Positions 2,069-19,512 of a stretch of 20,757 bases of DNA are shown here, piece after piece. This DNA is from Saccoglossus kowalevskii (lineage: Eukaryota > Hemichordata > Enteropneusta > Harrimaniidae). Below the pieces are notes generated by a model. It saw nothing but the letters and a program-made list of their open reading frames with translations, did not search any database and was not told the DNA's origin. The stretch spans positions 132,916-153,672 of the forward strand of contig NW_003137328.1 in assembly GCF_000003605.2 (NCBI RefSeq), read 5' to 3'. Positions within the stretch are counted from its first letter, which is position 1; the number at the start of each line of letters is the position of its first letter. Position numbers and translations under genes: made by a program.

Positions 2069-2275
2069 CTTGCTGCTTTAGTGATGAGTCTCCTTACAGA
2101 ATAGATCTGTGTAGTCATATCTGGAGGGGGATTGTCCACTGAATACACTCTCTCTTCAATCTTATCATTGTTATACCAGCAATGTGTAAAGAAACATCCA
2201 GTAGGACCTTTAGACTTGATGATAGAAGCATCCCCTGGCAACAACTCTACACATGGCTTGCTTCCCCAGCATAAC
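2069..2275 (-). CDS. C5orf34: C5orf34 homologue, coding exon 4
   Basis: Acceptor TTTCATTACAG, with the first G finishing the Arg codon split by the minisatellite intron (YR|LCWG). It encodes LLPGDASIIKSKG, then ERVYSVDNPPPD and YSVRRLITKAAR, collinear with human YSGDGSVFKSEG, EKTYSVNNLPPD and LIKQATR. Similarity stops at KAAR, where AAG|GTATTC is a usable donor, so I end the exon there. Without that splice the frame runs to a stop at 1957 with no nearby polyadenylation signal. Confidence 0.75.
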
Positions 2276-5200
2276 CTGTAATGAAACACAGTTAATAATT
2301 GTACACTGATCAGACATACACGTACCTATAAATGACACATTGATTTGATATACACATGTGAACACTACATACCTATAAATGACACATTGATTTGATATAC
2401 ACATGTGAACACTACATACCTATAAATGACACATTGATTTGATATACACATGTGAACACTACATACCTATAAATGACACATTGATTTGATACACACATGT
2501 GAACACTACATACTTATAAATGACACATTGATTTGATACACACATGTGAACACTACATACATATAAATGACACATTGATTTGATATACACATGTGAACAC
2601 TACATACATATAAATGACACATTGATTTGATATACACATGTGAACACTACATACCTATAAATGACACATTGATTTGATATACACATGTGAACACTACATA
2701 CCTATAAATGACACATTGATTTGATACACACATGTGAACACTACATACCTATAAATGACACATTGATTTGATATACACATGTGAACACTACATACCTATA
2801 AATGACACATTGATTTGATATACACATGTGAACACTACATACCTATAAATGACACATTGATTTGATATACACATGTGAACACTACATACTATAAATGACA
2901 CATTGATTTGATATACACATGTGAACACTACATACATATAAATGACACATTGATTTGATATACACATGTGAACCTACATACATATAAATGACACATTGAT
3001 TTGATATACACATGTGAACACTACATACCTATAAACAACATTTTCTGTCCAGATAACTTTCAGTTTTTCTTGACGCACATTATAGGGTTCTGCCGTGTCG
3101 ACACCATTACTGGTTTTATTCCAATTATGCAAATGTGATGCTGGACAGCGTATTGGCAGTGAATTTGGCAGTAAGCATTTTATAACATCACCCGTTTTCT
3201 CTCTAATAACACTATCTTTGTTTTTTTTTGTGTTGTCACTATGGACTTTATCTATGTTACCTTGACCACCAGAAACCGATATGGCTAAGTTTAAAGGGTG
3301 TTCCCAGCAGTCAGGATAGTCGACCAAAGAGTGACGACTCACAATAAATGTGCAAGACGTGCCATGTTTTCCTTCTATTGCAGCATTCATTTCATCATCA
3401 CAGGGAGTGGTGGGATGCTGTTGATTGAGTAACACAGTAAAGCTGCCACCATGATCCAAGTTGTCTAAAGGGGAAGTAGCATTCTTCCTGGGTTCCAGCT
3501 TTCTATCCAAATGTTGACTGACCTCTGCTATGTATTTAACACTGAATTCTTGTTTGTGTGGAGCCAGTATTAAGCTGGCATATTTATCCAATGATGTTAC
3601 AGATACAGATCCATCTTTATGTAGTTTTACGTATTCTTGATTTGGTTGTTTCACCCATCGCACCTGCTTGATGTTCGTAGGCATGGTCTAGATAAAATAC
3701 AATAATAGTTGTAATGCACTGTAGATATCATTAGGTACACATCATTATAACAATACCATGTGCTATTGGATATTTGTCAAGAAATTGATAGTATAAAATA
3801 GAAAAGCAGTTGTGCTGTCTGGTTTAAAATTGAACCATTTTGTTACCATGCTACAAATTTATTCAAATCAATTTACACAAGATGATGTGGCTTACCAATG
3901 TCCAGACGAAAGATATGTTTGATAGAATGCACTTGAGAAAACATGTTTAGGACATTATTATGTAGTAACACACTTCATAACAAAGGAAAATAATGATAAA
4001 CACCAGACAATTATCTCTTAGCAGAGAGTGCTTGCTTTTAATAAATGGGCGCTATTCGGCCATCTTAAAACAAATCATGAAACGAAAAGACTTGTATATG
4101 TATCACAAGATAAATTACGTATGTGTGAAGTTTGAATGTGATCAGTCTAGGCGTGTTTGAGATACACTCACATGGACTCACAAATGTTAGAAATTAATCC
4201 AATGAGACATTGTCAGAGAGTTACAAACCTACCACTATATCCTGTGTATTAATCAGAGCTGGGCAAATAAATGGTTTCTCTGCAAAGTGATTTCGAAATT
4301 CCAATGCTTCCTGGATTTTTCCTTTGAACTCACTTGTTACAAACTGTGTCCGCTGCTGTACTCTGAAATTAATATATTGAAATTAGTAAAACTAAGAAAC
4401 AAGTTTTAAATATCAGTAAAGTGTGTTTCCAATATAACTTTTTGAATTTGATACGTCTTTCTTATGAAACTTTCGAATGCAAACAATGTAATAGTTGGAT
4501 ACTATACATATAACCTATAGTTTGGACATGGTTTGCCATTTTAATTTTATTAATAATTTTATTATTATACATTCCTTAAGACTCAATAATTCATGTTCCA
4601 TATTTTCCAGAGACACCAACAAAATCAACAAGTTTGGTACAAAATTATAATTCCTGATGTCCAAAAGTGGATTTCATTTGTTTATTTAGCACTGGGTGGA
4701 AATAATTTGAGAATATATTTTTTTACTGTATTTCTACAACTGTTTGATACTTGTTTTGGTAGGGTTTGGGGCCTTGTAACTTCCGATGTGAGTGAGACTT
4801 TCAGAACTGTGAATTTGTGTGATACGCAGATCTGACTGTGAAACTATTTATGACCTTGATTTTTTCAAAACATATTAACATATATATTAACATATATTTT
4901 TTTCCTACACAGAAACATTGTTACATTGGCTACAATCAAAATTAAAATTGTGTGAATTATAAGTATGCCAATAAGAGTATGAATTGTACTTGAATCGTAT
5001 GTCAATCGTACTTGCATCCTATATGAATTTTACTCTAATCGTATGTGAATAGTATGCAAATTGTACGTGAATCAAACTGTACACTGTCTCAACAGAGCCT
5101 TGATCTGCTTTACACAGTTTGTTTGTTAGTTTGCTGTTTGTCAACCATTATAGACGCAAGGAAATTTTCCCCTCATGTTTAAGATATTTTTGATGTTAGC

Positions 5201-5425
5201 TTTGTATACACATTGTACAATTTTTACATGATGACTGTATGTGAATCTAGCATACCTATGTAACTGCTGCAAAGGATGACTGGTTGGTTTTTTCTCATGA
5301 ATGAACACAGTCCCACATGGTGACAACTGGAGCTGAGATCCATCAGAATATGTCACTTCTACTGCATCATTACAAAATATCATCATCTGATTTACACTGG
5401 GTAGAGGTGAATACGCCATTATGAG
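2069..5425 (-). CDS. C5orf34: C5orf34 homologue, N-terminal part (4 coding exons)
   Basis: Homologue of human C5orf34, a poorly characterised protein; I do not assign a function. Coding exons at 5256-5419, 4233-4362, 3029-3687 and about 2069-2275 join in phase through GT..AG introns to about 386 codons. The N-terminus VEVTYSDGSQLQLSPCG matches VQVQYVDGSTLQLSPCG in human as I recall it. Exon 2 QQRTQFVTSEF and EALEFRNHF match RQRTHFVIS and RALDFRNS. Exon 3 carries HKDGSVSVTSLDKYA and the CPASHLHNW motif. Exon 4 has ERVYSVDNPPPD (human EKTYSVNNLPPD). The human protein is about 638 residues, so roughly the last 250 are not accounted for. The ATG at 5417-5419 has A at -3 and G at +4. Exon 4 may instead read on to a stop at 1957, giving 423 residues. 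Confidence 0.88.
2324..3033 (-). repeat. 47-bp minisatellite filling C5orf34 intron 3, donor-bearing
   Basis: About 15 head-to-tail copies of a 47-bp unit, plus a truncated copy at the left end and the exon 3 junction itself at the right end. On the minus strand each unit contains TTTATAGGTATGTAGTG, the exon 3 donor sequence, or a one-base variant. At least eight copies keep the exact AG|GTATGT. Two units are slightly shorter near 2889 and 2970. The array makes up nearly all of the 753-base intron. Confidence 0.97.
3029..3687 (-). CDS. C5orf34: C5orf34 homologue, coding exon 3
   Basis: Acceptor TATTTTATCTAG, donor TTTATAG|GTATGT. The 659-base exon encodes IKQVRW, KDGSVSVTSLDKYASL, HKQEFSVKYIAEVSQ, a variable polar middle, then RCPASHLHNWN and VIWTENVVYR. 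These line up with human ITEVRW, GIVKITSLDGHAYL, SQHEFTVHFLCKVSQ and CPVPHLHRWN. The last seven exon bases and the donor are nearly identical to part of the 47-bp repeat that fills the next intron. Confidence 0.9.
4020..4175 (+). repeat. Solo fragment of the Helentron-like core repeat, in C5orf34 intron 2
   Basis: GCGCTATTCGGCCATCTT, ATCATGAAAC, GTATGTGTGAAGTTTGAAT and a closing TTTGAGATAC follow in the same order as in the core units of the element at 8306-9168 (GCCGTTATTCAGCCATCTTT, ATTATGAAAC, GATGTATGTGTCAAA and TTCTGAGATATG). It lacks the ACGG tract and the hairpin. Confidence 0.6.
4233..4362 (-). CDS. C5orf34: C5orf34 homologue, coding exon 2
   Basis: Acceptor TTAATTTCAG, donor ATAGTG|GTAGGT. 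Taking one base to finish the split Arg codon gives RVQQRTQFVTSEFKGKIQ, then LEFRNHFAEKPF, collinear with human RIRQRTHFVIS and LDFRNSS. Ends in phase 0. Confidence 0.88.
4982..5080 (+). repeat. Degenerate 11-bp tandem repeat, about 9 units
   Basis: Nine consecutive 11-base words start at 4982: AATTGTACTTG, AATCGTATGTC, AATCGTACTTG, CATCCTATATG, AATTTTACTCT, AATCGTATGTG, AATAGTATGCA, AATTGTACGTG and AATCAAACTGT. The consensus is about AATCGTAYGTG. It lies in C5orf34 intron 1 on the strand opposite the gene. Confidence 0.85.
5256..5425 (-). CDS. C5orf34: C5orf34 homologue, first coding exon
   Basis: Coding starts at ATG 5417-5419 (context CATAATGG). An acceptor, TTCCCTTTAG, ends at 5426, so a non-coding exon probably lies upstream. 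The donor is CATAG|GTATGC, leaving phase 2. Human-like residues begin around the second methionines (MMIFCNDAVEVTYSDGS), so the first 11 residues are lineage-specific or the start is slightly later. Confidence 0.85.
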
Positions 5426-8305: not shown

Positions 8306-9168
8306 AGTCCCCGTTAAGTTCTCTTTGTGCTCATCATATTAAAGCGGAGGGGTTGTCGCGAGCGTGTCCTTGAAACTTGAGTTCCAAGCGGCGTATACAA
8401 CTTATTGTTTATTTACATCAAAACACGCGTTTCGTGTCATAATATGGCCAAAATAAAAACAGCCGTTATTCAGCCATCTTTGGTCTGATTATGAAACACA
8501 CTGATATGTATGATGTATGTGTCAAATACGAATAAAAATGGTAAATAAATTGTGGAAATATAGTAGTAAGGCCAAAAAGTCAGATGGCTGTCAATCGGCC
8601 ATCCTTGACCAGATTTTGAAATAAATTGTCATGGACATGCATCCTAACGAGTATAAAGTACAAGATACCGCATAAAAAAACAAAAACAAGATGCCTGCCA
8701 GTCAACCATCTTTGATCCAATTGCGAAATAAATCGTCATGGACATGTATCCTAACATGTATAATCTATGTACCAAGTTTGAATGAAAACTGACAAAGCAT
8801 GTCCAAAATACAACATTTTCAAAAAACAAAATGGCTGCCAGTCGACCATCTTTGATCCAATTGTGAAATAAATCATCATGGACATGTATCCTAACATGTA
8901 TAATCTATGTACCAAGTTTGAATGAAAACTGACAAAGCATGTCCAAAATACAACATTTTCAAAAAAAGAAGATGGCTGCCAGTCGGCCATTTTGAATCGA
9001 ATCGCTAAACCATTGCATGTGCACATGTCCCACATAAAGTACCAGGCACATGCAAAGAATGAACGAAATCGGTCCAAGGGATTCTGAGATATGACTCCGG
9101 ACGGACACACGGACGCACGGAGACCGAATTATAAGTCCCCGTTTTCAGACTTCGTCCGAACGGGGACT
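8306..9168 (+). mobile_element. Helentron-like non-autonomous element (HINE type)
   Basis: AGTCCCCGTT at 8306-8315 is the inverse of AACGGGGACT at 9159-9168. Inside are four to five diverged core units, each starting near GATGGCTGCCAGTCGGCC (about 8461, 8583, 8691, 8831, 8972). The last three starts are 140-141 bp apart. Then comes an ACGG-rich microsatellite (9097-9119) and a terminal hairpin with 10-bp arms AGTCCCCGTT/AACGGGGACT and a 15-base loop (9134-9168). Core repeats plus ACGG tract plus 3' hairpin is the layout of bivalve pearl/Cvg1-like elements related to Helentrons. The minus-strand frame over 8751-9110 is only the repeat read as protein. The exact 5' end is uncertain. Confidence 0.6.
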
Positions 9169-10833: not shown

Positions 10834-11602
10834 CTTTGTGTTGTACGACAGTGAGAATTTGTACTATCACATGAATAGGATAACGTGCAATGACGTTTAT
10901 ATTGTCTTGGTATGGAAAACTGTTGTTCCAGCATATTTTCTGCACAAAAATATTGGTACATTGGCTCAAATTGTTATAAACATTAGTGTGAATTACATTT
11001 CACACATACGCGAAATGAATGGTTCACTGTCTTCATGGTGACACTCATAGGGAATATTGATGGGCCCATCTGCCCTCTAGTGATTGAGGTTGGGAGATAT
11101 AATTATTCAATTGTTATCAAAGCAACAGTACACATACATTTATACTTACTATCAATTATCAATACAAATTTTGTCCTATGGCAAAGGATAATGTATTTCT
11201 TCGCCAAAATTTGTTGTAAGTACAATAAACTATTTTAAACTTGGTGAATAATAATTAAACTAAGAAAATCATGTCTACATGAACAAAATGTCATTTTTTG
11301 AATGAAAAATCACTTTTTTTTTTTTACAAAATTACTAATGTTCATAAAGCTCTACTGAATCAAGGAAAACAACAATGTTTTATACATTTTTTTGCAAGAC
11401 ATCTTGACAAGGAATAGTTCCTATTCTTTTGTAACATTTACTGTAAATTCTTGCAAATCATGGACTTATTGCATGCAAGTCACAAACTATCAAGCTCCAA
11501 GGAACATTCACAATAAAATTTTTTCAAAATTAGAATTTTCATCCAAAAGATAAAATGCTAATAATCTTATTTGAGCCCCGCCCAGTTCACATGCAATAAA
11601 AC

Positions 11603-12770
11603 TAGTCTTGTTTAAACAAGTTTACATATTCATTTGTCAGACCAATCTCCCCACATGATACCACCATTCCTGTTCATACAAGCTTACATATTTAATTGCC
11701 ACACCAATCTCCCCACATGATACAACCAGTCCTATTCATACAAGCTTACATATTTAATTGCCACACCAATCTCCCCACATGATACAACCAGTCCTATTCA
11801 TACAAGCTTACATATTTAATTGCCACACCAATCTTCCCACATGATACAACCAGTCCTATTCATACAAGCTCACATATTAAATTGTCAGACCAATCTCCCC
11901 ACATGATACAACCAGTCCTATTCATACAAGCTTACATATTTAATTGCCACACCAATCTCCCCACATGATACCAGTCCTATTCATACAAGCTCACATATTC
12001 AATTGCCACACCAATCTCCCCACATGATACAACCAGTCCTATTCATAGAAGCTTACATATTTAATTGCCACACCAATCTCCCCACATGATACAACCAGTC
12101 CTGTTCATACAAGTTTACATATTTAATTGCCACACTAATCTCCCCACATGATACAACCAGTCCTATTCAAACAAGCTTACATATTTAATTGCCACACCAA
12201 TCTCCCCACATGATACAACCAGTCCTGTTCAAACAAGCTTACATATTTAATTGCCACACCAATCTCCCCACATGATACAACCAGTCCTGTTCATACAAGC
12301 TTACATATCCAATTGCCACACCAATCTCCCCACATGATACAACCAGTCCTGTTCATACAAGCTTACATATTTAATTGCCACACCAATCTCCCCACATGAT
12401 ACAACCAGTCCTGTTCTTACAAGCTTACATATTCAATTGCCACACCAATCTCCCCACATGATACAACCAGTCCTGTTCATACAAGTTTACATATTTAATT
12501 GCCACACCAATCTCCCCACATGATACAACCAGTCCTGTTCATACAAGCTCACATATTCAATTGCCACACCAATCTCCCACATGATACAACCAGTCCTATT
12601 CATACAAGCTTACATATTTAATTGCCACACCAATCTCCCCACATGATACAACCAGTCCAGTTCATACAAGCTTACATATTCAATTGCCACGCCAGTCCCC
12701 CCCCCACATGATACAACCACACGGGATATAACTGCTGTTCTGTTCATACCAACTTACATATTCAATTGAC
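11603..12770 (+). repeat. 62-bp minisatellite, about 18 copies
   Basis: Head-to-tail units of 62 bp, each with ACAAGCTTACATATTTAATT, then GCCACACCAATCTCCCCACA, then TGATACAACCAGTCCTGTTC. I count 18 occurrences of the CACATGATAC word from 11653 to about 12705, with diverged partial units at both ends. One unit near 11964 lacks 4 bases, and the last has an expanded C run. It lies between the TRIP12 3' end and the LINE region, outside both genes. Confidence 0.97.
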
Positions 12771-13470: not shown

Positions 13471-13667
13471 CTACGAGAGATGAAATGATTGTTGTCCTTC
13501 CATCACAGCAATACGTAGTTTGGATTCCATTATATCTTTGTTGGAATAATCTGGTAGTTTCAAATAGTTCACACATGTCATAACGGAAGGTAAAAAGTTA
13601 TCAGCAGATTCATTTGACTCAAATGTTTTCCTCACTATTGTCAGTGGTGGACTCAAAGCACGGAAAC
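13471..13667 (-). CDS. TRIP12: TRIP12 last coding exon K with catalytic cysteine
   Basis: Acceptor is a run of T followed by GTAG. It reads [18 protein letters not shown], then [16 protein letters not shown], and ends EGQQSFHLS before TAG at 13471-13473. The Cys codon is at 13573-13575, at the position of the ubiquitin-accepting cysteine in HECT C-lobes. The carboxyl end is identical to the human one as I recall it. Confidence 0.97.
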
Positions 13668-16600
13668 CTACAAAAAAAAAAGAAAACATAATTTATCAAG
13701 TTGATTAATACATGTAGTTAAGATTTGGCCTGGAATATTTTACACAAAGCAAGACATGTTTTCAATGTGTACCATTAGAAGTAGTTGTGAAAGATTGTCT
13801 AAGATTATAAAAATACACAACACAATTATATTCTTAACTCACCTCCAACTGGCAGTCTGGGACTTCCAGTCACAAACTGTAAAAACTGCCTTTGTTGTTC
13901 TGAGTTATAGAATGTTAAAATTTCAAATAAAAGCTTGACAGCCCGACTGAAAGATAATAAGACAATTTAAAACTGAGATTAGTTGGGATTAGATCAGTTA
14001 TAATGATGCATATAGTGGTTTTATTGCATGTTTTCACTTTCAGTATTTTGTGGTCTAAAGCAGTAATGATCAGTGCTATACACAGCACATTTGTTCTAGA
14101 CCGTGACTATTGCAAAATTCTAAGCAGAATGTAATAATCAAAGAAAGCTTAGAGAGAACTCCCATGTACTCCATGGTATTTGAAGAATTTAGAAGAAATA
14201 GAGAATATTTAAAAAAAAATTAAGATTAGTCGTTTAAACATGATGGCAGTTGGATAATATAATGCACAGTGTGAAAGCACCTCTGACCCATAGTTTTTGA
14301 AGATTATTATATTAACAGAAAAGGAATAAATTTAAATTTAATTTTACATTTGTGGTTTGCAGTTTGTTTATCACAGAGCACCTATGCACCAAGTTAAGTA
14401 GTTATCAAGATATTGGGTATATTGTTGAATTGTTTTGTGGTTGAACTGTAAATATGGTAGCAATTTATTCTAGGTGCATGTATGGCTTCTGATTGATATA
14501 AAGATTACCTGTCATGATTATAACCATGATCTGGTCTACAACAATCCATGAGTGTTTTCATCTCCCATGGTTCATAAGTATTGCCACACAGTAATTGGTC
14601 CATCTGAAATGCAATTTATTTCAACAGTTAAGACTATGTGAAATGGAGCATTCTCACTACCATGAGATTCATCAAGCATTACTTTCAACACATCCCAAAT
14701 TCTGGTTCATTGATGCTTAGAGCAGAAAGGGTCGTGATTTTTCCATTGCTTTGATTTTGTGGGAAACAAATTGTGAATATGAAAATGCAGGAAAGCACTA
14801 AGTTGTAGCAGAGACAATTTCACCAGAAAAGGAAACACAGTGACAATCTTGAGGTCATTTTCTACACAGTCCGTGGATGGAAATGTGATTATCTCAACAA
14901 CCAAAAATCACTTCACAGCTTACTCACCTCTTCAGGGTAAAAACATTTAAGAAGAGATATAGGAAATACAGATTCAAAACCATCTCTGAATGCTTCACAT
15001 TGCCTTGACACACCTTCCACTAGAGTCCAGTGCACAAGCAGCTACAAAAACAAAAACAATTAAAGTATGAAGCAAACAAATGGTAATGAAATAATATGCA
15101 ATTACTCATAAACAGTACACAGAAAAATTATTGATTGACACATAGTGGAGGTCGATGTGACTGTGCACTGTAATCTCTGTAACCTTATTATCATTCATCT
15201 CAACACAACTGCTTGGTGTGTGAAGCCCAGAAGCGAGCAAGATGGTGACAAATTTGTCTTCTTCAAAATATAACATAATAATTCAATATTTGGAATTTGC
15301 ATTTACCTAATTAGGTAATGTACCCTGTGTAAAACAAAATTACAGCACACTGTAACTTAAGATGATACATAATAACAAGAGCTTGTACCATGCAATTATG
15401 GAGATAGATCATACCTGTAAATATTCTTGTAAGTTGTGTATTGTAACTGGAATATCTTTCCCACCTTTCTTTAATTCAATATTAGGATATCCAGGTAAGA
15501 CGAAATCTAATGCCAAATCTTCAACAGAACAACCATCCATTGTAAGACTATCTAGAGCTAACTGTAGACTAGCAGGAGTCTGAAATCAAACATAACAAGA
15601 CCATAGCATATCACACATCATGTACTGTACAATAATGGGTTTAAATATAGATTATATTCATGTCAAAAGGCAATTGTACAATTAATGTATTTACTGACTT
15701 CAAGTTCACTGCACCATCAGTGCAGTGTTTAAGGTACACAGTACTGTACACGATTAGTTTCATTTTTTTGTTAACTTTTACAATTTTATTTTGACAGGAG
15801 CTATGATGATTAATTAGGCATCCAAGGATTGTGGGTCAATGTTTTTTTTAAAATTGGTATACATGCCTACTGATCAACAAATTTAAGTAAGAGAGCACAT
15901 TTCAAGCTCTCAGCCCACCACCTTTATTGGTAATTAGATGATTTCACAGCTTTCCTATTTTATTCATAATTTTGCAACTTTTAAATTAAATTTAATATAA
16001 CTTGATTTTTGCAGCATATTTAATACATCACATTCACCGTCATGCTGTGAATACTGATTCAGTGATCACCTTAACATTGACAATTTCACCACAACATAAA
16101 GTTAAATCTTTTACTCACTAAATAAACTAAGTACAGGCATATGTTGCATAAAAAAGGGAGCTTTTTAGACAATGCATAGATGAATTCACCTGATGTGTGA
16201 AATAACATCTTTGATTGGATAACTCCTTAACTACAGGTCATAATTTCTTGTGTACGGACGGCCAAGCTCACTGTAAACACGCAGACACATAATTTTGAAT
16301 TTTTTATTGCATTTAGGAAACAAATATCGTATTTGATTTGTTGGTAGCAGAGGTGTCTCTATAGTCAGGTGATTGTTGATACACAACAAAGGCATCCATT
16401 TTTGGTTTATATGTACTTCTATTTGAGGCGTGCTTGTAATATAACTTGAGATGTCACATGTTTATTTGTTGGCAGTTTCAAATGTGCAAAGTGCCATTGT
16501 CGATCACTGTGTTGTTTGCATAAACTGAAACCTGCCAATGTTTGCTAGATCAAATAACGGCAATTGTCCTGTTATCTGCTGTAACCCCCCCCCCCATCTA

Positions 16601-19512
16601 AAAAAAAATCAATCACTATTTATTGCATCAACCAGAAGCACTATTTAAATTTGTGCACAAAACATTTTTTATTATTTGTAAGCTATAATTTATACTCTTG
16701 AAATGTTTTTGCAGTAGATATTGAATGTATAAATCTATAAAGTACTGAATTAGTTTCAACCATTTTCAATTTAATTCACATAAAGCAGTGACTTAGCAAA
16801 TACTACCAAGCTACTAACTACAGAATGATTGTATGACTGGAGAGAATAAGCCATAAACATTGATTTGTACTTACATGTGACTGGTCATGTTCCAATCTTT
16901 TCTTCTGTCTGAGTATATCTTGTAACTGGTTATATGAATTGGCAATAACTTGGTCAACATGGCGCAAATCAGAGGCACTAACAGTGGACTCCTCACCTAG
17001 AATCCACTTGTAAAATGATAGACTAAATGGAATGTCAATCTAAAATCAAGTAAAGAATAACTATCATTTATTAACCTTAAAATATAGATATAGATGCTAG
17101 AAAGTGCTCCTGTGTAAAGTGAATTCAATATTTGTTGATACTCAGTTTACTGAACAAATAACATACAACCATTTCTGCCTGACAATAAACTGCACAAACA
17201 ATATGCTTGCAAAAGTTTTAACTCATTTGAGCAAAATGTTGTTAGGATATGAACAAAACTTGCTTAAATAAGTTAACTGGTATGCAGATTAGCTAATTAA
17301 CTTATGCATATTGATTTCAATGTGGTGTTAGACTTTCAACTACACAATCAGTGAGAAATGAAGTCGGGCAGACACATGCACCCCCCCTCCCCCCCACACA
17401 CACATACACAGATGACGGAAGCAAACACAGAACACAAGTCTCTGTTTCAGATTATGTTTGTTAAGTTTTACATGGAATGAGCGACAGGATCTTTCAATAT
17501 CTTTGGCATTGCTAAATATTGGCAGATGAGTGTAGGTCTTGTGCAATCGTACATTCACTGGTGAACTCACCATTCTTGAATCCATTAAAGCTTTGGCTAC
17601 AAATCTGCCAATGAACTTGAATTTGTATCTCAGCTTTGCAACTGCACCAAGTTTTGCTGTCTTTGGTATTGGGGATGGAAAGAGACCTGTTGGTGCATGT
17701 AAGTACAGCACCCCATCTTGATTACCTACAACAGGCAATATTAGAGTAAGTAAGTAATGGAGTAACACTTACTGACCAATCATGTACTGGTAACAGCATT
17801 TGTAAATCATAGGCTCTCTACATTCTATTTAGGAGCAGTACACACATTTTTGACAACACCACCAAAATTATGATATTTTCAACAAACATATATACCCAGA
17901 TATTTTGGTAATTATGCAAACATATGTCAGTAATTATGATTGAAACAGGAATGTCAATACATATAAACAGACAGAGAAGAAAGTACCTTTAGGATCAGGT
18001 AAGGGTACAGCCTCTCCTGCCCATATATCTAGATCAGCTCTCTGAATCTCTTGAGACACAAGTGCATAGAATTCTAAAGTCGGTCCTAACCCAGTTCCAA
18101 CCTACAGAGAAAACATTCTGTCAGGGTCAGGTTCTCAAGTCTAAAAAATTGAATCTGCTAAAGATTACCTGTACTCTTTGTATAAGATTATGCAATGGCA
18201 AATTTGTGGAGGTCTGCAGACGCAATGTACTCAGTAATGAAGGATATAAAAGTGTTCTGGTTGAGTGAGAGGGGCATATCGAAGACACTATATATACCAC
18301 AATGAAATTCACAGAACACTGTGATGTAATATGTTTGTCAACGTTGTTGCAATATAATATATGGGGAATGGGTAAAATGCACTGTTTGTTGACCACCTAT
18401 TAATTAGACCATGAAACTATTGATTACATCATTTTTGTCATCTCCATCATTTGCTGACCACTGAAATCTTGATCAAGCATACACAGTTTTATGATGCATG
18501 CCAGTGGTTGAACTTTGTGTTATTTGGGAATGGTTCTCAATTGTTCAGAAAGAATTGGTGTGGCTTTTATTAAGGATGCAGCTCCTAACACAGATTTTAC
18601 AGTACTAGTGAATTTGATTTGTTTAACATTATAAATAACACTTTTTATAGTTATTAACTGGGTCAATAAATATTCAAACTATTGGTAAAAAAAAATATTC
18701 CTATAGGTGGTGTTTATGCTAATTGATGAAGAAGACATTACCTCATTTTCATATTGTATTTCTAGAATTGCCTTTGAACTGCCTAATTCTTCAATGACTG
18801 TTTCTGCTTGCTGCAGTAAATTATCTCTTGACACGGTTCGCTGAGGAAAAATAACAAACAGAAAAATGAGTGACACAAGTTGTTAAATTACAGACTGATG
18901 TATTCTGTAGCTAGGTGAAAGGTTTTTCCAGAATCCTGGAGGGAAAAATAGCTAAAGCATTTCATGAAATAAGAACACTGAAGGATATACAACCGCTGTA
19001 GCTTTATATTATGGTATATCCTTGAAGTATGTCAGACCATTGTGAGAATGTATGGGTTATTGGAGTTAATCTTTGTAATGTAAGACACTTGTTGTCATGA
19101 CTTACCTTCCTTCTATCTAGTCTAGGTGCAACACGTTCACCAGCATCAGATGAATTCATATCAGGATTATTATCCTGTAATCTCTGCATAGCTCTATCTC
19201 TATCAAAGGCAGTGACGTAAAACAACAGCTGACGTGTATCAAATGGCAATAAAAATGGACTGCAAAAACAAAACAGATTAACTTAAGCAAAGAAAGAAGC
19301 CATCCAGAATTTGGTGTTTTAATTCATAACAGGTGTATGCGTAGATGAGTTCAGCTTGACAATACATACCAGTATTTAGCCACATCTCCTAACCATGATG
19401 GCAAGTTTCCTGTCATAATAACTAATGGATCTTGTAACTGTCTTGCCGCCTTTGCAGTTACCTTACTGTTAATGAATTCATGGGTAGACAAAACAGCATG
19501 TGGTTCAGCACC
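13471..19512 (-). CDS. TRIP12: TRIP12 E3 ubiquitin ligase, C-terminal 501 codons (11 exons)
   Basis: HECT-type E3 ubiquitin ligase, a mainly nuclear enzyme that takes ubiquitin from an E2 on a cysteine and passes it to substrate lysines. Eleven exons on the minus strand (19370-19512, 19106-19259, 18742-18840, 17987-18101, 17571-17725, 16875-17039, 15415-15579, 14928-15041, 14509-14603, 13843-13946, 13471-13667) have GT..AG introns and agree in phase at every junction, giving 501 codons and a TAG stop. The order matches human TRIP12 as I recall it: [32 protein letters not shown], the HECT N-lobe, then the C-lobe with [16 protein letters not shown] and the end EGQQSFHLS. The MTC cysteine is the expected catalytic residue. 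Length from FINSK to the end is close to human. The upstream armadillo and WWE parts lie past the right edge. Nothing suggests a pseudogene. HECTD1 and UFD4/UPL3 relatives are less similar. Confidence 0.96.
13843..13946 (-). CDS. TRIP12: TRIP12 exon J, HECT hinge and start of C-lobe
   Basis: Acceptor TTATTATCTTTCAG, donor GGAG|GTGAGT. It encodes [18 protein letters not shown], then [15 protein letters not shown]. The FVTGSPRLP motif is the N-lobe to C-lobe transition typical of HECT domains. Confidence 0.96.
13947..14508 (-). other. TRIP12: TRIP12 intron I-J
   Basis: AT-rich intron of 562 bases between exons I and J. I see no repeat of note and no RNA gene. Confidence 0.8.
14509..14603 (-). 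CDS. TRIP12: TRIP12 exon I, end of HECT N-lobe
   Basis: Acceptor TTGCATTTCAG, donor GACAG|GTAATC. It encodes MDQLLCG, then [17 protein letters not shown]. It ends in phase 2; the split Ser codon is completed by the next exon to give DSRAVK, as in human. Confidence 0.95.
14928..15041 (-). CDS. TRIP12: TRIP12 exon H, HECT N-lobe
   Basis: Acceptor TTTTTGTTTTTGTAG, donor GAG|GTGAGT, 38 codons, phase 0 at both ends. It encodes [19 protein letters not shown], then FYPEE. This is the highly conserved segment before the LDQLLCG motif. Confidence 0.96.
15415..15579 (-). CDS. TRIP12: TRIP12 exon G, HECT N-lobe
   Basis: Acceptor TTTGATTTCAG, donor CAG|GTATGA, 55 codons, phase 0 at both ends. It encodes [15 protein letters not shown], then [18 protein letters not shown], close to the human LTMNGCSVEDLGLDF block. 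In HECT enzymes this stretch precedes the E2-contacting part of the N-lobe. Confidence 0.96.
15580..16874 (-). other. TRIP12: TRIP12 intron F-G, largest complete TRIP12 intron in window
   Basis: 1295 bases without a coding exon, bounded by CAT|GTAAGT and TTTGATTTCAG on the minus strand. It contains a C run beside an A run near 16585-16608. No transposable element end is clear. Confidence 0.8.
16875..17039 (-). CDS. TRIP12: TRIP12 exon F, HECT N-lobe
   Basis: Acceptor TACTTGATTTTAG, donor CAT|GTAAGT, 55 codons, phase 0 at both ends. It reads [18 protein letters not shown], then a less conserved stretch, then [14 protein letters not shown], matching IVRQKKRLEQDKSQ in human. The segment length equals the human one. 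Confidence 0.95.
17040..17570 (-). other. TRIP12: TRIP12 intron E-F
   Basis: 531 bases holding a C-rich and CA-rich simple repeat at about 17379-17410. The frame that runs from exon E into this intron on the minus strand has no family similarity. Confidence 0.8.
17571..17725 (-). CDS. TRIP12: TRIP12 exon E, HECT N-lobe
   Basis: Acceptor CCTGTTGTAG, donor ATG|GTGAGT. It encodes [12 protein letters not shown] and [19 protein letters not shown], the conserved HECT helix (FLGKLMAKAIMDFRL in human as I recall it). The reading frame stays open past the donor, but the residues there lose all similarity, which supports the splice. Confidence 0.95.
17987..18101 (-). CDS. TRIP12: TRIP12 exon D, start of HECT domain
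   Basis: Acceptor TTTTCTCTGTAG, donor AAAG|GTACTT. It begins [18 protein letters not shown], the hallmark opening of the HECT N-lobe in the TRIP12/UFD4 group, and ends in phase 1 within PDPKG. The tryptophan in DIWAGE matches the DLGLWRGE region of human TRIP12. Confidence 0.95.
18102..18741 (-). other. TRIP12: TRIP12 intron C-D
   Basis: 640 bases with no recognisable coding or repeat content. Short open frames on both strands around 18062-18396 are not conserved protein. Confidence 0.8.
18742..18840 (-). CDS. TRIP12: TRIP12 exon C
   Basis: Acceptor TTTTTCCTCAG, donor GAG|GTAATG, 33 codons, phase 0 at both ends. It reads [13 protein letters not shown], then [16 protein letters not shown], which is the lead-in to the HECT domain. 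The human counterpart as I recall it reads [15 protein letters not shown]. Confidence 0.95.
19106..19259 (-). CDS. TRIP12: TRIP12 exon B
   Basis: Acceptor TTTTTGCAG, donor AAG|GTAAGT. It encodes [20 protein letters not shown] followed by an acidic, polar stretch and APRLDRRK. This block is strongly conserved in TRIP12 and its yeast relative Ufd4, just before the HECT domain. It ends in phase 0. Confidence 0.95.
19370..19512 (-). CDS. TRIP12: TRIP12 exon A (most upstream in window)
   Basis: Acceptor TTTTTACATAG precedes the exon and donor TG|GTATGT follows. It reads EFINSK, then [18 protein letters not shown], matching the TRIP12 segment just before the FDTRQ block. It ends in phase 2 and the split Cys codon is completed by the next exon. 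Starting here in phase 0 is inferred, because the preceding exon is outside the window. Confidence 0.93.

Follow-up and report, generated by a model that had tools for sequence, protein, structure and literature searches.

Intron 3 of the C5orf34 homologue of Saccoglossus kowalevskii opens with a minisatellite that runs across the boundary between exon 3 and intron 3, takes in the last bases of the exon and copies its splice donor in unit after unit. Judged by its anatomy, this array is a mirage in the structural sense, that is, a minisatellite lying across an exon-intron boundary. We consider it probable that the intron is removed whole, that the exon-proximal donor is used most, and that the products of the other donors, here called decoys, decay. 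A slash marks the splice junction in the sequences given below.

The host gene and its third intron

The window (the whole 20,757-nt stretch of DNA that was analysed) carries on its minus strand a homologue of C5orf34, the four joined exons of which (5419-5256, 4362-4233, 3687-3029 and 2275-2069) give a single open frame that matches the families C5orf34-like_N (4.9e-30), C5orf34_2nd (3.2e-18) and Polo_box_4 (1.5e-24). The features of this locus are as follows.

5256-5419, minus strand: first coding exon of the C5orf34 homologue (joined-frame translation)
4233-4362, minus strand: exon 2 (joined-frame translation)
3029-3687, minus strand: exon 3, the final 7 nt of which (3029-3035, TTTATAG) belong to the repeat (joined frame and unit list)
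2323-3035, minus strand: 47-bp x 15.2 minisatellite across the boundary of exon 3 and intron 3 (TRF and unit list)
2276-3028, minus strand: intron 3, 753 nt (frame-preserving join TAT AG/G TTA within the Polo_box_4 match)
2276-2325, minus strand: 50-nt tail of intron 3, which starts with the last partial unit (GTACGT) and continues with unique sequence, TTAAC and the acceptor TTTCATTACAG
2069-2275, minus strand: exon 4 (joined frame and domain match)

Reading frame and domain content both give good support to the predicted join of exon 3 (3029) with exon 4 (2275), because intron 3 interrupts the Polo_box_4 match (residues 307-385). No intron array was described for C5orf34 among the matches listed in a search of the literature by gene name, the coverage of which was partial.

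Elsewhere in the window, positions 13471-19512 of the minus strand hold the C-terminal exons of a TRIP12-like HECT ubiquitin ligase, with an open joined frame; its last exon matches Pfam HECT and has TRIP12 as its best PDB match. A second minisatellite (62 bp x 18, TRF) lies at 11596-12719, past the stop codon of the TRIP12-like gene, and a 140-bp x 2.2 direct repeat occupies 8682-8995, inside sequence that by eye resembles an interspersed element.

The array includes the end of exon 3

The minisatellite at 2323-3035 has a period of 47, 15.2 copies and 98% matches by TRF. The donor of exon 3, on the minus strand, reads ...TGTTGTTTATAG/GTATGTAGTG, with 3029 as the final exon base and 3028 as the initial intron base, and the edge of the array lies 7 nt inside the exon (TTTATAG/GTATGT). 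Read along the gene, exon 3 terminates in TGTTGTTTATAG and the unit consensus in TGTCATTTATAG, and the stretch identical between the two is exactly 7 nt long (TTTATAG, 3029-3035) and lies in coding sequence. An earlier reading of the window, made from the sequence alone, had claimed that the array takes in the last exon bases, and this was confirmed. The chance of a 7-nt identity between exon and unit, computed from the composition of exon 3, is 9.6e-5, or 1.4e-3 if the AG is given. The units are nearly identical to each other: only 10 of 705 unit cells depart from the consensus, these are confined to 3 of the 47 columns, and 6 of the 10 fall at position -1 of the donor.

The sequence-only reading had further described the intron as made of the repeat. 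This is true of the 47-bp x 15.2 array and not of the final 50 nt (2276-2325), which are unique past their first 10 nt and contain a branch-like TTAAC at 2291-2295, 16 nt from the intron end. We did not accept this tail as a diverged sixteenth unit: of 2000 shuffles each, 47 full and 166 fixed-end ones attained its global alignment score, and 85 and 190, respectively, its local score; with stricter gap settings, and leaving aside the shared 10 nt, 1670 of 5000 shuffles attained its score. Neither descent of the exon 3 end from an older, diverged unit (248/2000 and 806/2000 shuffles, global) nor relatedness of the unit to the first bases of intron 1 (GTATGCTAGATTCACAT; 197/2000 and 767/2000 shuffles, global) was significant.

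The repeat is specific to this junction. With 3 or fewer mismatches allowed, a 25-mer across the junction had 14 matches in the 572-Mb genome, 13 of them in the array and 1 elsewhere (contig C3232), and its reversed control had 0. The sole outside match carries 3 mismatches, and a repeat occurring elsewhere without any link to the exon, which by its own account would have told against the earlier reading, was not seen. The 1,001 bases around the array had no second place in the 572-Mb genome in a search that skips simple and very common words, and the viral contigs scanned with a 39-mer of the unit gave 0 matches. Inclusion of the last exon bases and specificity to the locus both support the proposal that the array grew from the exon-intron junction, and because of the two together we regard such growth from the exon 3 junction itself as very probable.

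Arrays at other donor boundaries of the genome

At least four donor-boundary arrays are present in the genome, in the C5orf34 homologue and at FMO-like, acetyl-CoA hydrolase/transferase-like and fasciclin exons. The three arrays outside the C5orf34 homologue are located as follows.

Contig C2885, about 92850-94486 (stretch L007, 9930-10000, and stretch L006, 1-1570): FMO-like array, on the same contig as the C5orf34 array and ~40 kb from it
Contig C253, 1196657 onward (stretch L033): array at an acetyl-CoA hydrolase/transferase-like exon (Pfam 5.4e-11)
Contig C93, 302400-303400 (stretch L032), minus strand: array at a fasciclin exon (fasciclin 2.9e-5)

The FMO-like array begins at the exon end VLVVGIGNSAVDVATDCASVGR, in an exon with a Pfam FMO-like match (7.4e-6), and has a unit of 56 bp, of which 47 nt are exonic and 9 intronic. 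With the real one counted, it holds 28 donors, of which 27 are TAG/GTAAGTAT (U1 duplex energy -12.4), and both flanking exons of the 1701-nt intron join in frame; it is a bolder case than the C5orf34 array. A mariner-type transposase-like stretch was noted by eye beside it (L006, about 1800-2600). In the acetyl-CoA hydrolase/transferase-like array, the donors are flush with the exon and units of 40-41 bp share 7-9 exonic nt; the fasciclin array is also flush with its exon, and its units measure 66 bp, with ~40 exonic nt, on the exon side and shorten to 46 bp deeper in the array. Both of these arrays were judged from the upstream exon alone.

They were found among six arrays whose flanks were inspected, chosen by eye among the matches listed. 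Two of the six (L033 and L032) are flush with coding exons, in two (L030 and L035) no long open frame runs up to the first donor, and the remaining two had N upstream (L031) or a flank sequence that starts inside the array (L034). A TRF survey of 28 stretches of ~10 kb (8 on the contig that carries the C5orf34 array, 20 on other contigs, some of these small and mostly satellite) gave 37 rows, some overlapping, with a period of at least 15 and at least 2.5 copies; the consensus of one row, that of the FMO-like array, contained AGGTRWGT on either strand. The genome is rich in tandem repeats. Several 10-kb stretches from contigs of 15-28 kb (L011, L012, L017, L020 and L026) are nearly all satellite array, with periods of 31-489 bp. 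When a pattern of three donors at 20-50-bp spacing was compared with its reversed form, triple AGGTRWGT showed no clear excess genome-wide (3911 matches versus 2880 reversed), and triple AGGTAAGT had 1133 matches versus 1610 reversed. These genome-wide counts were not used as evidence because satellites dominate them.

Relation to known systems

This kind of structure is already known from the mirages of amphioxus, and human IFI6 provides a functional parallel. Amphioxus mirages are described as tandem repeats that span exon-intron junctions of the Adh3, globin (BflGb6 and BflGb9), PGBD5 and troponin C genes; many of their units carry AG/GT, the arrays are unstable in length, and splicing is reported to be normal (PMC3087553, PMC3902484). 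Set beside these cases, the C5orf34 array has the same anatomy: it reaches from the intron 7 nt into exon 3, and AG/GT is kept in many but not all of its units, namely in 9 of the 15 decoys (8 with GTATGT and one with GTACGT). Its copy number is different, with ~15 units here and 28 donors in the FMO-like array versus the 6 and 3 units reported for the two amphioxus BflGb6 haplotypes.

The original paper on the human IFI6 minisatellite is reportedly that of Turri et al. (1995). As summarized in a later source, two downstream repeat units of IFI6 (6-16, G1P3) serve as splice donors (PMC4526556). The C5orf34 array is likewise a minisatellite, with units that are donor-like by sequence; however, in IFI6 the repeats are in use and known isoforms arise from them, whereas every C5orf34 decoy joined to exon 4 leads to a premature stop. 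The human UBC tandem array uses dual-specific splice sites, and VCX3A also has such sites in tandem, according to PMC10809524. The likeness to the C5orf34 array lies in a tandem unit with an AG/GT site; in UBC, as presented there, whole coding units are spliced in frame, whereas the C5orf34 unit is mostly intronic and its length is not divisible by 3. The tandem duplications with AGGT that underlie intron gain (PMC4974935) are also local duplications that copy splice signals, but in the C5orf34 case an existing intron would have been lengthened.

Decoy donors and the predicted outcome of their use

The donors of the array are listed below by position; U1 denotes the duplex energy with U1.

3021-3031, minus strand: authentic donor from -3 to +8, TAG/GTATGTAG (PWM 8.01, U1 -8.3)
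2882-2984, minus strand: three exon-nearest decoys (2981, 2935 and 2889), all without the -1G (U1 -3.2, -3.2 and -3.4)
2835-2845, minus strand: first of the 8 decoys that equal the authentic donor (donor comparison)
2795, 2748, 2701, 2654, 2466, 2419 and 2372 (first intron base), minus strand: the other 7 identical decoys
2506-2610, minus strand: three further decoys without the -1G (2607 and 2560 with T, 2513 with A; U1 -3.2, -3.2 and -5.0)

The sequence-only reading spoke of a ladder of near-equal donors, and the comparison bears this out. Eight of the 15 decoys are TAG/GTATGTAG, the same as the real donor from -3 to +8, and the U1 duplex energy is -8.3 kcal/mol for the real donor and for each of these 8; because they are equal, any score of the -3 to +8 stretch will tie. 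The last-copy decoy (2325) is TAG/GTACGTGT (GTACGT; U1 -8.2). In the six decoys without the -1G (T at -1 in 4, A in 1, and the -1G deleted in 1), the energy falls to between -3.2 and -5.0. Three of the 5 distinct variant alleles lie at the -1G (0.0044 over all columns), and the three exon-nearest decoys are all among the weakened six, which has a chance of 0.044 if the units are independent, which they are not. These patterns are a hint of selection against decoys. A mutational hot spot spread by duplication fits the -1G pattern as well as selection does, because the GT is lost in no unit.

RNA structure that hides the decoys was not seen in predicted pairing, which gave the real donor no advantage (predicted unpaired probability of 0.27, versus 0.05-0.50 for the decoys). 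Purines make up 61% of the last 47 nt of exon 3, which contain 9 GA-type triplets, whereas the unit is 48% purine and has none, and we infer a difference of the exonic-enhancer kind. This GA-rich context cannot be the whole answer to donor choice, because the FMO-like array copies up to 47 exonic nt with each donor and the argument is therefore not general.

By translation, all 15 decoys joined to exon 4 give a premature stop. Decoy 1 causes a frameshift with a stop 25 codons past exon 3, and decoys 2-15 run into a common in-frame TAG 18 codons past exon 3. The three-frame cycle of decoy use that had been envisaged thus has no outlet in the protein, and one-base deletions in two units break its strict form. 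Transcripts spliced from a decoy to exon 4 would be expected to undergo nonsense-mediated decay.

These results bear on the possibility that the array is a functional ladder, in which several donors are used as in human IFI6, either making isoforms or tuning expression through decay. The equality of 8 of 15 decoys with the real donor and the donor use reported for the IFI6 repeat units in PMC4526556 point in this direction, but no coding isoform of the IFI6 type would arise from the unit donors, the 15 predicted isoforms all carrying premature stops, and amphioxus mirages are reported in PMC3087553 and PMC3902484 not to disturb splicing. We therefore regard a functional ladder as unlikely.

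Acceptor-like ends of the units

The units were also said to place an acceptor-like end directly against a donor, in the form of a ratchet point, and this juxtaposition of AG and GT is indeed present at 9 of the 15 unit junctions. On a small local matrix built from the 14 acceptors of the window, the intron 3 acceptor included, the unit junction AATCAATGTGTCATTTATAG/G scores 6.26 versus 5.80 for the real intron 3 acceptor, the latter being its score when left out of the matrix; 3.5% of the 231 AGs in other introns score as high as the unit junction. Pyrimidines make up 9/17 of the tract in the unit and 11/17 in the real intron 3 acceptor, with a range of 8/17 to 15/17 over the 14 window acceptors, one of which is below the unit. 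A single unit could hardly be a mini-intron, because its sole branch-like YTNAY at a usable distance lies 33 nt from the unit AG and ~13 nt from that unit's donor.

The strong decoys are all preceded by AG, and mis-splicing from one of them to exon 4 would leave TTTATAG/GTTATG. Because the TTTATAG of the exon stands before each strong decoy and would leave an acceptor-like AG flush with exon 4, such products may be repairable. The -1G sets both donor strength and repairability, and units that lose it would therefore become weak and irreparable together. A related thought appears in the Discussion of PMC10809524, where expansions with dual sites are held to be less harmful since they can be spliced out. 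That the array is a self-correcting intron, in which the flush AG is re-spliced from the authentic donor and the exact correct mRNA is restored, is an idea we offer as speculative and rather improbable.

Recursive splicing of intron 3 is possible on the sequence, and would be unneeded for 753 nt. Recursive splice sites have a strong polypyrimidine tract and a branch site before AG/GT, and the ratchet points of Drosophila lie in long introns with strong pyrimidine tracts. The C5orf34 units share with these ratchet points the juxtaposed AG and GT; intron 3 itself is 753 nt long, and its tract is modest. Removal in two or more steps through the dual sites, with the array excised piecewise and the same donor regenerated at each step, could draw on the retained AG/GT, on the score of the unit junction relative to the real acceptor and on the dual-specific sites used in the human UBC array, as described in PMC10809524. 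However, the tract of 9/17, the poor branch-like site and the shortness of the intron speak against it, as do the donor columns of the FMO-like array, which do not stand out in conservation (equal or higher in 13 of 56 circular 11-column windows, the donor window among them), and we consider such removal quite improbable.

Origin and tolerance of the array

The insertion into intron 3 of an unrelated minisatellite or mobile element that matches the exon end by chance is very improbable, for although minisatellites are many in this genome (the 62 bp x 18 array at 11596-12719 of the window is an example), the match at the exon 3 edge is exact over 7 nt, the 572-Mb genome has no other close copy of the junction 25-mer, and three other exons show the same anatomy, with 47 exonic nt copied in one case.

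The array is most likely a by-product of local tandem duplication. This mirage account starts from structure, locus specificity and near-identity of the units, which are observed, and from them we infer the process of duplication and expansion. A 47-bp stretch, consisting of ~7 nt of the exon 3 end and the first ~40 nt of intron 3, would have been duplicated in tandem, and the copies would then have expanded and been homogenised to ~15 by slippage or unequal exchange. The array would be tolerated because its copies lie within an intron that is presumably removed as one piece. The exon-proximal donor would be used most, likely because it is made first, because it is part of exon 3 with GA-rich upstream sequence absent from the units, and because position -1 is weakened in the three decoys that follow it. 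If a decoy were spliced directly to exon 4, the product would carry a premature stop, and the transcript would probably be removed by nonsense-mediated decay.

Significance

This analysis adds the recurrence of such arrays on one contig and in one genome, the long FMO-like array of identical donors, and the suggestion that strong decoys may be repairable by build. The arrays amount to a natural competition experiment, with identical donors at 47-nt spacing in the C5orf34 homologue and at ~56 nt in the FMO-like gene, which also copies as much as 47 nt of exonic context, and they ask what beyond local sequence marks the right 5' splice site. If self-correction were true, it would explain how this animal tolerates donor arrays of 15-28 copies. 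That boundary minisatellites recur in a single genome, with two in a 45-kb span of one contig, bears on the lengthening of introns and on the possible origin of new ones.
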